DNA of 36,896 nt from an uncultured Clostridia bacterium. Lineage in GTDB: Bacteria; Bacillota; Clostridia; Christensenellales; Borkfalkiaceae. Position numbers and translations under genes: made by a program. Below the pieces are notes generated by a model. The model was not told the origin of the DNA, did not search any database, and saw only the letters and a list, made by a program, of their open reading frames with translations. Position 1 is the stretch's first letter. The number at the start of each line of letters is the position of its first letter. Below are positions 14,043 through 17,208 of this stretch, in pieces. The stretch spans positions 1-36,896 of the forward strand of contig CANQNO010000016.1 of assembly GCA_947625245.1 (NCBI GenBank), written 5' to 3'.

Positions 14043-15803
14043 CTATTCCACCGTCACGCTTTTGGCGAGATTGCGCGGCTTGTCGGGGTCGCAACCCAAA
14101 ATCACAGCCGTGCGGTAGGCGAGAAGCTGTAACGCCGCAGCCGACAGCAGGGGCGACAGATATTTGTCGCAGCGCGGCAACTCTATTATCTCCGCCCGTC
14201 CCTTTAAATCATGCTTTACGCCGGGCAGACCCGTTATTACAGCCACTTTGCCGCGGCGGGCAAGCACTTGCTCCACCGCTCCCTCCGCCTTTACCGATAT
14301 ATCCGGGTCGGTTATTACGAATACCGAAAGCGTGCTCCCGTCTATGAGCGCGAGCGGACCGTGCTTCAATTCGCTTGCGGGATAGCCGCAACCCGGGATA
14401 TAGCTCACCTCTTTAAGTTTAAGGCTTCCTTCCAAAGCCACGGCATAGTCGATATCCCTGCCCAAAAAGTAGACGCCGCTACTCTCCGCGCACAGCCGCG
14501 CAGTTGCGTATATGTCTATCTTTTCAAGCGTTTTTAAAATGAGTTTGGGCATTTCGGCGACCGCCGCGAAATTTTCCTCTTTTTCAGCAACCAGCGAGGC
14601 GAGCATATACAGCGCGGCTATCTGCCCCGAATAACTCTTTGTGGCGGCGACGCCTATCTCCGCGCCCGCGGCAACGGGAACAACCACGTCCGCAATCCGC
14701 GTTATGGCGGAATAGGGCGAATTTGTAACCGCGAGCACGGTGCAGCCCTGCGATTTATACAGCCGTGCGGCTTCAACCGTGTCGGCGGTTTCGCCGCTTT
14801 GGGTTATAGCTATAAGCGCCGTCTTTTCGGCGACGTTCAGGGTTTTATACCGCAATTCACCCGCATAATCGGTTTCGCAGGGGATATGCGCAAATTCCTC
14901 TATGTAACGCTTCCCCGCGAGAGCGGCGTGATATGCCGTTCCGCAGCCCGTAAATACTATCCGCCGTACGCCGCTCAATGCGGACTTTATCAAGTCTTTT
15001 TGTCCGCAAAACGCCGTTATGGTGTTTTTGACGGTTGCGGGCGCTTCCCACAGCTCCTTTACCATAAAATGCGGAAACCCGCCCAAAGCCAGCGCGGAAG
15101 GTTCGGCAAGGTTTGGAAGATAAGCGCGGGTTATCTCTCTTTTACCGCCGTCGTAAATTTTGGCGGAGAGGGGCGTCACAAGCGCAAAATCGCCGTCCTC
15201 GAGTACGCAGACTTCTTTGCATTTCCCCGCGAGGGCGGTCATGTCGCTGGCAAGATAATTGCAGTTTTCGCCCAAACCCAAAATAACGGGCGAACGGCAT
15301 TTTGCCGCCGCTATCTCCTCTTTGCCTTCACACAGGCACAACAGCGCATACGAACCTTTGAGCATATCCGCACATTTTATTACGGCTTCTATCAGATCCC
15401 CGTCGTAAAATCCGTCGATAAGGTGGGCTATAACTTCACTGTCCGTTTCCGACAAAAAAATTTCGCCGCGTTCGGTAAGCCGCTGCCTGAGCTCGGCATA
15501 ATTTTCGATTATCCCGTTATGCACTACGGTGATCCTGCCGTACGTGTGCGGGTGGGCGTTGGCGTTGGAAGGCTTGCCGTGCGTTGCCCAGCGGGTGTGC
15601 CCTATGCCCGTATGCCCGCCGAAGAACCGCAGCGACGCGCCCAACTTTTCCACCCTGCCGCAACTCTTTACCGTTTTGCATGCGCCGTTTTCCATAATCG
15701 CCATACCCGCCGAATCGTATCCGCGGTATTCCAGATTTTTAAGTCCTTCGTAAATTATTTGCGCGGCGTTGCCGCCGCCCGTATAACCTATTATTCCGCA
15801 CAT
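14043..15803 (-). CDS. glmS: Glutamine-fructose-6-phosphate aminotransferase (isomerizing)
   Basis: A 586-residue two-domain enzyme that makes glucosamine-6-phosphate from fructose-6-phosphate and glutamine, the entry to UDP-GlcNAc and peptidoglycan. It begins MCGIIGY, so the N-terminal nucleophile Cys is in place; RGYDSAGMA, TRWATHG and HNGIIENY of the glutaminase domain follow. Two SIS domains (TGCGTAYHAAL; SQSGETADT) bind the sugar phosphate, and the C-terminus ends KPRNLAKSVTVE as in the family. AAGGAGA precedes the ATG and glmM ends 17 nt upstream. That gap leaves no room for the glmS ribozyme known from many Firmicutes. It is the last gene of the amino-sugar operon. Confidence 0.97.
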   Translation of the reverse strand: MCGIIGYTGGGNAAQIIYEGLKNLEYRGYDSAGMAIMENGACKTVKSCGRVEKLGASLRFFGGHTGIGHTRWATHGKPSNANAHPHTYGRITVVHNGIIENYAELRQRLTERGEIFLSETDSEVIAHLIDGFYDGDLIEAVIKCADMLKGSYALLCLCEGKEEIAAAKCRSPVILGLGENCNYLASDMTALAGKCKEVCVLEDGDFALVTPLSAKIYDGGKREITRAYLPNLAEPSALALGGFPHFMVKELWEAPATVKNTITAFCGQKDLIKSALSGVRRIVFTGCGTAYHAALAGKRYIEEFAHIPCETDYAGELRYKTLNVAEKTALIAITQSGETADTVEAARLYKSQGCTVLAVTNSPYSAITRIADVVVPVAAGAEIGVAATKSYSGQIAALYMLASLVAEKEENFAAVAEMPKLILKTLEKIDIYATARLCAESSGVYFLGRDIDYAVALEGSLKLKEVSYIPGCGYPASELKHGPLALIDGSTLSVFVITDPDISVKAEGAVEQVLARRGKVAVITGLPGVKHDLKGRAEIIELPRCDKYLSPLLSAAALQLLAYRTAVILGCDPDKPRNLAKSVTVE

Positions 15804-15820: not shown

Positions 15821-17170
15821 TCAGAATTTGGCGCAGTTGGCTTTTACCTTTTTTTCGAGCGCGGCGACGGCGGCCGCGCAGTCGCCGTAAACTTCGCCTT
15901 CCGCCATAAGCCTTATCAGCCTCTCCGTTCCCGAAGGGCGGGCTACTATCCGCACGTTCAGTTTTTCGGAAAGCTCTGCGGCAAGCTCGGCAACCCCGCT
16001 CATAGCCGCCGTTTTGTTTTCGGCGGGAACGTTAAAATTGATCTGTTCCAGCGGCTTGTAACCCTTTAAAAGTTCATACAGGTTGCATTTTTGCGCCGAA
16101 ATGGCTTCCATTATCATGAGCGCGGTCACAAGCCCGTCGCCCGTGGTTTCGTACTTTGAAAACACTATGTGCCCGCTTCTTTCGCCGCCGAGCGCCGCCC
16201 CCGAAACCTGCATTGCGCGCCATACGTTGCTGTCGCCGACGTCGCAAATTTCGGTAGAAACGCCCTTGTTTTTAAGACTGTTTATAAGCCCGCCGTTGGA
16301 GAGGGCGGTGCAGACGACGGTATTTTTAAAAAGTTCGCCTTTGCTCTTTAAAAAGTCGGCACAGATATAAAGAATTTCGTCGCCCGTGAGCACTTCCCCG
16401 CGCGAGCCTACGGCAATGCACCTGTCGCCGTCGCCGTCGAACGCAAAGCCCAAATCGAGAGAATTTTCCTCGACGAGTTTTTGGAGAGCGCCTATATTGG
16501 TGGAGCCGACTCCGCCGTTTATGTTGGTGCCGTCGGGGTTGTCGCCTATCACAAAGGTCTTTGCGCCCAAAGCCATGAATACGCTGCGCGCTATCTGCCA
16601 GGCGCTGCCGTTAGCCGCGTCCAGCCCGACGTTCAGCCCTTTATACGAGCAGGTGGAAAGGGATATAAGGTGACCCACATATCTGTTTCTGCCCGATATA
16701 TAGTCCACCGTACGCCCCACGTTGTTGCCGCTTGCAAAGGGGATTTCGCCGCCGAAAGGGGTCAAATCCCCGTCGAGATAGCGTTCGGTGAGGGAAATCA
16801 CCCCGCCCGAAAGCTTTTCGCCCTGTGAATTGAATAGTTTTATGCCGTTGTCGCGGTAGCCGTTATGGCTTGCCGAAATCATAACCCCGCAGTCAAAGCC
16901 GTCACAGCGCGTCACGTACGATACCGACGGCGTTGTGGTGACGTGCAAAATATAGGCGTCCCCGCCCGAAGCGGTAAACCCGGCGGCAAGCGCGTATTCG
17001 AGCATATACGAAGAAAGCCTTGTATCCTTGCCTATTACGGCGCGGCATTTTTTGCCCATGTTCACGCCGAAATACCAGCCCAGCACCCGCCCGCATTTAA
17101 AAGCCTGCTCTGCGGTTATGGTTACGCCCGCCTCGCCGCGGAAACCGTCCGTTCCGAAATATTTACCCGT
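15821..17170 (-). CDS. glmM: Phosphoglucosamine mutase, apparently with an ACG start codon
   Basis: Reading from an ACG at 17168-17170 gives a 449-residue protein beginning (M)GKYFGTDGFRGEAG, the canonical GlmM N-terminus. AAAGGAGG lies 5 nt before this ACG and no ATG, GTG or TTG exists between it and residue 29 (GTG, 17086), which would cut off the conserved first strand. The phosphoserine loop is GVMISASHNGYRDNG (S101 the phospho-acceptor; Gly replaces the usual Pro), the metal loop is FDGDGDR, and the phosphate-binding loop is RPSGTERLIR. It converts glucosamine-6-phosphate to glucosamine-1-phosphate. It sits between a GlmU acetyltransferase-like gene and glmS, so the operon supplies successive steps of UDP-GlcNAc synthesis. 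Confidence 0.92.
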   Translation of the reverse strand, partial: TGKYFGTDGFRGEAGVTITAEQAFKCGRVLGWYFGVNMGKKCRAVIGKDTRLSSYMLEYALAAGFTASGGDAYILHVTTTPSVSYVTRCDGFDCGVMISASHNGYRDNGIKLFNSQGEKLSGGVISLTERYLDGDLTPFGGEIPFASGNNVGRTVDYISGRNRYVGHLISLSTCSYKGLNVGLDAANGSAWQIARSVFMALGAKTFVIGDNPDGTNINGGVGSTNIGALQKLVEENSLDLGFAFDGDGDRCIAVGSRGEVLTGDEILYICADFLKSKGELFKNTVVCTALSNGGLINSLKNKGVSTEICDVGDSNVWRAMQVSGAALGGERSGHIVFSKYETTGDGLVTALMIMEAISAQKCNLYELLKGYKPLEQINFNVPAENKTAAMSGVAELAAELSEKLNVRIVARPSGTERLIRLMAEGEVYGDCAAAVAALEKKVKANCAKF

Positions 17171-17208
17171 AAACGCCTCCTTTTAAGTTTGTTATTCGAT
17201 AAAATTCT

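Follow-up and report, generated by a model that had tools for sequence, protein, structure and literature searches.

Bacteria almost never use ACG to start a protein. To our knowledge, few bacterial genes have a conserved non-canonical start codon, and those in the literature that we searched use AUU, AUC, AUA or GUC. A 2020 preprint by Gvozdjak and Samanta reportedly describes bacterial genes that prefer non-AUG starts, and one study is said to have measured all 64 codons in E. coli. IF3 discriminates against the non-canonical start of its own gene, infC (PMC5472188), and in Staphylococcus aureus this start is AUA (PMC13009471). In Streptomyces, sigR starts at GTC, is repressed by IF3, has a very strong ribosome-binding site, AGGAGGTG, and yields little product relative to its partner (PMC5472188). 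In S. aureus, the conserved weak starts of cvfC1 (AUU) and ccpN (AUA), each with an extended Shine-Dalgarno (SD) sequence, lower protein yield, and that of ccpN does so in a medium-dependent manner (PMC13009471). In chloroplasts, the ACG of psbL, ndhD and rpl2 is edited to AUG in the mRNA, and PMC9845219 states that such editing is not observed in bacteria. A survey reports that, for the first two bases of the codon, IF3 accepts Watson-Crick pairs and no others (PMC10158994), a rule that ACG paired with a CAU anticodon breaks because its second base mispairs. A reporter library in E. coli, whose other values look noisy, placed ACG among the codons that initiate at 0.1-1.5% of ATG (PMC6925171), and reinitiation in E. 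coli drops when IF3 is over-produced (PMC2268962). Among open-licence papers, we came across neither a conserved ACG start in any bacterial gene nor any work on the starts of glmM.

Here we analyse a glmM gene, from a group of uncultured bacteria of the gut, whose start codon appears to be ACG. In the window (that is, the whole 36,896-nucleotide stretch of DNA under analysis), the start of glmM reads, on the minus strand, AAAAGGAGG cgttt ACG GGT AAA TAT TTC GGA ACG GAC GGT TTC CGC GGC, with the GGAGG at 17180-17176, a spacer of 5 nt, and the middle C of the ACG at position 17169. The first-pass annotation had claimed that this ACG occupies the position expected of the initiator Met, with an SD sequence 5 nt before it, that no ATG, GTG or TTG occurs in frame before residue 29, and that a start at residue 29 would destroy the first domain. 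All of this was borne out: the frame lacks ATG, GTG and TTG from the ACG until the GTG at 17086, and a start at that GTG would cost GlmM 28 residues, the conserved GTDGFRG among them. Coordinates are collected in Table 1.

Table 1. Features of the glmM locus in the window, and a second candidate non-canonical start in two relatives.
Feature	Position	Strand	Basis
glmM, phosphoglucosamine mutase, 449 aa	15821..17170	-	open frame and profile matches
Putative ACG initiation codon of glmM	17168..17170	-	sequence; same codon at the site in 40/64 lineage genes
Shine-Dalgarno AAAAGGAGG, 5 nt upstream of ACG	17176..17184	-	sequence; GGAGG 5-9 nt before ACG in 40/40
In-frame TAA 5' of ACG, rules out an in-frame start further upstream	17183..17185	-	sequence
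GTG, residue 29, first canonical in-frame codon, judged not to be the start	17084..17086	-	ORF reading
GlmU-like upstream gene, hexapeptide acetyltransferase part only, 200 aa	17209..17811	-	profile matches
glmS, next gene downstream in the presumed operon, 17 nt past glmM	14043..15803	-	profile matches
alpha/beta-hydrolase-like gene, candidate ATT start	L151:7512-8231; L178:83-802	-	by eye

The identity of the gene was assessed with profile models and genomic context. The 449 open codons of the frame encode the domains PF02878, PF02879, PF02880 and PF00408 in that order, each above its gathering score, and the match to domain I of the Pfam PGM_PMM family begins at residue 3. The NCBIfam glmM model TIGR01455 matched from residue 5 and over positions 1-441 of 442 with 422.6 bits, which lies under its curated cut-off of 447.55 bits; in control searches of 14 genomes, four archaea included, all matched and 8 of the 14 passed the cut-off. 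The gene stands in an amino-sugar context, with glmS downstream and a GlmU C-terminal-like gene upstream, whose stop falls 38 nt before the ACG. The GlmU-like protein matches GlmU models only from about position 256 (i.e., the acetyltransferase half), and the uridylyltransferase half must sit elsewhere or be replaced. In the genome assembly to which the window belongs (94.4% complete), only one glmM was found, the second match being a distant phosphohexomutase of 61.3 bits.

A protein search was run against 80 relatives and the window's own genome, and from its matches we took the 29 best-scoring same-genus loci besides our own. The first-pass annotation had named ATG in relatives as the sign of an assembly error or a strain-specific mutation. 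Among these 29 best same-genus loci, the codon before GKYFGTDG was ACG in 18 and ATG in 4, with TTG in 2, ATA in 2 and GTG, GCG and AGT in 1 each; two of the 18 ACG loci have a canonical codon directly before the ACG. We extended this set with a pattern search of 93 genus genomes in which 24 codons were allowed at the start site (76 matched). The rows added in this way were picked by a pattern that shuts out all other codons, whereas the 29 best-scoring relatives were not chosen by pattern. Once duplicates had been merged, the set comprised 106 glmM genes; of the 85 genomes that they come from, 82 belong to the genus and 3 to other families within the order. Three loci are not among the 106 rows: L001 (a duplicate of L003), L103 (an ACG gene of G120 on a contig stub) and L122 (a fragment). 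Eleven of the 93 genus genomes are without a row (G025, G036, G043, G046, G087, G092, G097, G102, G119, G120 and G124), and in four of them (G025, G036, G043 and G046, 92-95% complete) distant phosphohexomutases were the only glmM-like matches.

A tree of 105 of the 106 genes, from which we read the assignment of rows to lineages ourselves, separates the lineage of the window's glmM (72 rows) from a paralogous one (34 rows). The window's lineage consists of 64 genes with the start at its ordinary place and a subclade of 8 in which the site is shifted. In the 64 genes, window included, the start site reads ACG in 40, ATG in 10, GTG in 7, ATA in 3, TTG in 2 and AGT and GCG in 1 each; one of the 40 ACG rows, L096, lies at a contig end and is absent from the tree. 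The idea that close relatives would carry the same codon thus held in part: ACG is widely conserved across the lineage and not fixed in it. Two start sites are odd, those of L042 (G045) and L015 (G037), which read GCG or AGT, and L015 probably starts at an upstream ATG with an extension.

The paralogous lineage starts at ATG in 32 rows, TTG in 1 and GGC in 1. This paralog (L037, L051, L065 and others) is about 55% identical, is followed by a glmS-type motif in 30 of 34 rows and is often preceded by a gene with a (S/C)VRG-type tail. The two lineages were found together in 21 of the 85 genomes, 12 of which have ACG in the window-lineage copy, and the window's lineage occurs alone in 51, of which 28 start at ACG; a second copy was sought less thoroughly in genomes known from the pattern search alone. 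Outside the genus, no ACG start of glmM was found in the 20 of 32 other-family genomes of the order that were read or in the three tree rows from such families. A scan of GTDB genomes gave 78 loci that could be read among its 80 best: 72 with a canonical codon no more than 30 nt away, five with neither a canonical codon nor ACG, and one with ACG and no canonical codon; this last locus (L262, same genus) comes from the same assembly as G006 and is not independent. Parsimony over 71 rows of the lineage makes ACG ancestral, with 8 changes, when the tree is rooted on the paralog, a root that is itself an assumption. Furthermore, the branches of clades that are ACG throughout add up to 8.5 amino-acid substitutions per site, so ACG is an old state.

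We considered whether the ACG could be an ordinary threonine codon or a chance arrangement, and rejected both. None of the 64 lineage genes has ACA, ACC or ACT at the site, yet ATG, GTG, TTG and ATA occur there, and the arrangement recurs in genes across the genus. By comparison, the 40 ACG genes encode the Thr of GTDG with ACG in 20 cases, ACA in 7, ACC in 7 and ACT in 6, and within the 39 of these rows that are in the tree this Thr codon changed 12 times. Over all 63 tree rows, the start codon changed 16 times versus 19 for the GTDG Thr codon, which weakens the argument from conservation, and codons 8 (GAC in 62 of 63) and 5 (TTC) changed less than the start codon. Read from the sequences, ACG is very probably the genuine initiation codon of glmM.

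The ACG start is accompanied by a strong SD sequence. GGAGG lies 5-9 nt upstream in all 40 ACG genes (at 7 nt in 24 of the 40), compared with 10 of 19 canonical-start genes of the same lineage and 1 of 33 canonical-start paralogs. Within the lineage, a Fisher test of genes with weak starts (39 ACG and 3 ATA; 42 of 42) versus canonical ones (10 of 19) gave p 5e-6, a value not corrected for phylogeny; a phylogeny-aware test of the same association rested on 6 independent pairs and was not significant (median p 0.25), with 0 pairs in the opposite direction. RNA folding lent no support to a structural switch at the start, either in the window (z 0.87) or across the 40 ACG genes (z averages 0.24, with a single gene below -2, against mononucleotide shuffles). 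Finally, the glmS ribozyme (RF00234) was found in 0 of the 93 genus genomes under stricter filters and is absent from the window, while the control searches detected it in Bacillus subtilis and Deinobacterium chartae.

These observations could be joined in the following model. An ordinary CAU initiator tRNA would decode the ACG as fMet despite mispairing with its middle base; such a start would be intrinsically poor, and the strong, well-spaced GGAGG would rescue it. In many relatives the GlmU C-terminal-like gene overlaps glmM, and termination followed by reinitiation may help glmM there as well. The pair of weak codon and strong SD would be held by selection as a translational brake, which would keep GlmM synthesis at a low rate that is probably sensitive to IF3, and perhaps GlmS synthesis too if the two are coupled. 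That low rate would be the point of the arrangement, in a genus where no glmS ribozyme was found to restrain the pathway. The first-pass annotation expected that weak initiation would throttle amino-sugar flux, as it may do; the conservation of ACG suggests that its weakness may be selected rather than harmful. The IF3 pairing rule, the weak ACG reporter, the SD precedents and the reinitiation data together argue for a low, SD-supported, IF3-sensitive rate. The start itself is well supported; its regulatory role is one that we infer. We lean slightly towards this explanation as a whole. The further reading, in which a genus-wide, selected ACG start, SD-tuned and IF3-sensitive and belonging to the sole glmM found in many of these genomes, would tie the supply of cell-wall amino sugars to the state of translation initiation, is more tentative, and we regard it as plausible but on balance doubtful.

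The strongest alternative, a live one although somewhat unlikely, holds that ACG is the true start and is simply tolerated, with the strong SD and coupling to the upstream gene making the codon nearly irrelevant; ACG would then be a historical accident of no regulatory value. Overlap with the upstream gene bears directly on this question. In 23 rows of the window's lineage, an upstream gene with a GlmU-type tail, ...GRY..(N/D/Y/G)G, has a stop that overlaps glmM codons 2-3, so that the gene ends 8 nt past the start codon's first base; two more rows have this end 23 nt past it. In 21 of these 25 rows the start is ACG and the upstream gene's codon across it is AAC, GAC or TAC; three have ATG (L043, L093 and L114), and the last has GGC over GCG. 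In another gene, L117, the overlap is 4 nt and the start is GTG. Reinitiation could therefore relax the choice of codon in 21 of the 40 ACG genes, as the alternative requires. However, the other 19 ACG genes, window included, keep ACG all the same with no such overlap found. Changing ACG to ATG takes one step and, in the 21 overlapping rows, gives AAT, GAT or TAT, which leaves the upstream residue unchanged; in an essential gene such a change would normally be favoured, and it has mostly not been taken. The force of this silent-route argument is moderate, because C-ending codons are generally preferred (in the window's own genome, AAC makes up 0.64 and GAC 0.69 of their pairs) and no codon is synonymously more conserved than codon 8, GAC. 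In addition, ACG is dispensable, since 22 of the 64 genes have ATG, GTG, TTG or ATA, and its 16 changes on the tree likewise fit a codon that is tolerated.

We consider it very unlikely that the lineage reads ACG as a start in general, through an altered initiator tRNA, IF3 or ribosome. Our census of starts covered 436,896 bases of the window's own genome (400,000 sampled bases plus the window) and 146 homology-supported genes, less 4 near edges. Under a strict SD rule, 75 of the resulting 142 genes have a canonical codon with an SD nearby and 67 do not. Seven of the 67 lack any canonical codon in the scanned stretch, and among these glmM alone has ACG with an SD; of the other six, one has an SD and ATG just beyond the stretch, and five look like partial or shadow matches. 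No other ACG start with an SD occurs among the 142 sampled genes, and when genes of three sampled genomes were compared in 193 pairs, the sole ACG-ACG pair with an SD was glmM. The initiator tRNA is ordinary, with a CAU anticodon, in five relatives (G006, G014, G041, G089 and G113). A pattern for the initiator anticodon stem was found in 73 of the 93 genus genomes, where five matches read CGU and the rest CAU. We rejected an initiator tRNA with a CGU anticodon, as ARAGORN finds a tRNA at none of the five CGU matches. The initiator tRNA of the window's own genome, G000, was not found in its assembly, which we take as an assembly gap. The small G000 genome does carry two different tRNA-Thr(CGU) genes (L184 and L186, on contigs 7 and 25), both of which look like ordinary elongators.

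What speaks for a general tolerance is that other non-canonical starts are present. The infC gene of G000 (L213, contig 22) has no canonical codon at its start and reads ATT ATA after AGAGGT, and most of its counterparts in the genus and order (L214-L241; N-terminus given for 21 of 29 loci) are similar and seem to start at ATT, ATA or the like, a few having ATG near. Because these infC starts are non-canonical, discrimination by IF3 is probably intact in the genus. In both G017 and G041, an alpha/beta-hydrolase-like gene, judged by eye, has ATT as the first codon past an in-frame stop and AAGGAG upstream of it, and is probably a second candidate for a conserved non-canonical start.

It is also highly improbable that translation starts elsewhere, whether further upstream, at the GTG of residue 29 or at some other near-cognate codon. 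Gene finders limited to ATG, GTG and TTG would pick residue 29, and some relatives have an in-frame ATG, GTG, TTG or ATA upstream: a canonical in-frame codon lies within 25 codons upstream in 17 of the 40 ACG rows (23 have none), and in two of the 40 an ATG stands two codons before the ACG. In the shifted subclade (L023, L064, L066, L085, L024, L025, L026 and L076), where ATG or TTG stands directly before the site, the start has apparently shifted upstream by one codon; the codon left behind as codon 2, counted apart from the 64, is ACG in 6, GCG in 1 and ATG in 1. On the other hand, four rows have a stop no more than 5 codons upstream of the ACG, among them the window, where TAA stands five codons upstream and the four codons in between (AAG GAG GCG TTT) include no start codon. 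The residues before 29, including those around GTDG, are present in glmM genes of the lineage, and the spacing of the GGAGG suits the ACG and not residue 29. An assembly or sequencing error, or a broken gene, is next to impossible even though the window comes from a draft assembly, since 39 other genes from separately assembled genomes have the same ACG.

If ACG is the start, gene finders limited to ATG, GTG and TTG must truncate such genes, here by 28 residues and into the first domain. If an essential metabolic gene conserves ACG, often at a position where ATG would be silent, this would widen the set of start codons that bacteria can use, and glmM is a case in which possible control of metabolism through IF3 can be tested directly. 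A fidelity-controlled metabolic operon whose start is mismatched at the middle base would, if true, belong to a class that we did not find described for bacteria in the open-licence literature.

Set beside known systems, glmM has features of each. The chloroplast genes have ACG where AUG belongs, as glmM does, and differ in that their mRNA is edited. Like infC and sigR, glmM has a rare start that is conserved (ACG in 40 of 64 genes), no canonical start at its N-terminus in the window and a strong SD with the weak start (GGAGG in 40 of 40). infC shares with glmM a conserved non-canonical start in a housekeeping gene; however, its AUU, AUC or AUA keeps AU at the first two bases and serves IF3 in controlling its own level, whereas the mismatch in glmM falls on the second base and the gene is metabolic. 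cvfC1 and ccpN resemble glmM in joining a conserved weak start to an extended or strong SD, but they differ in codon and function, and their starts were mapped by ribosome profiling. sigR shares with glmM a conserved rare start within an operon together with a strong SD; its codon is GUC, its product is a sigma factor and its start was tested by experiment, whereas the ACG of glmM belongs to an essential enzyme and is known from sequence.
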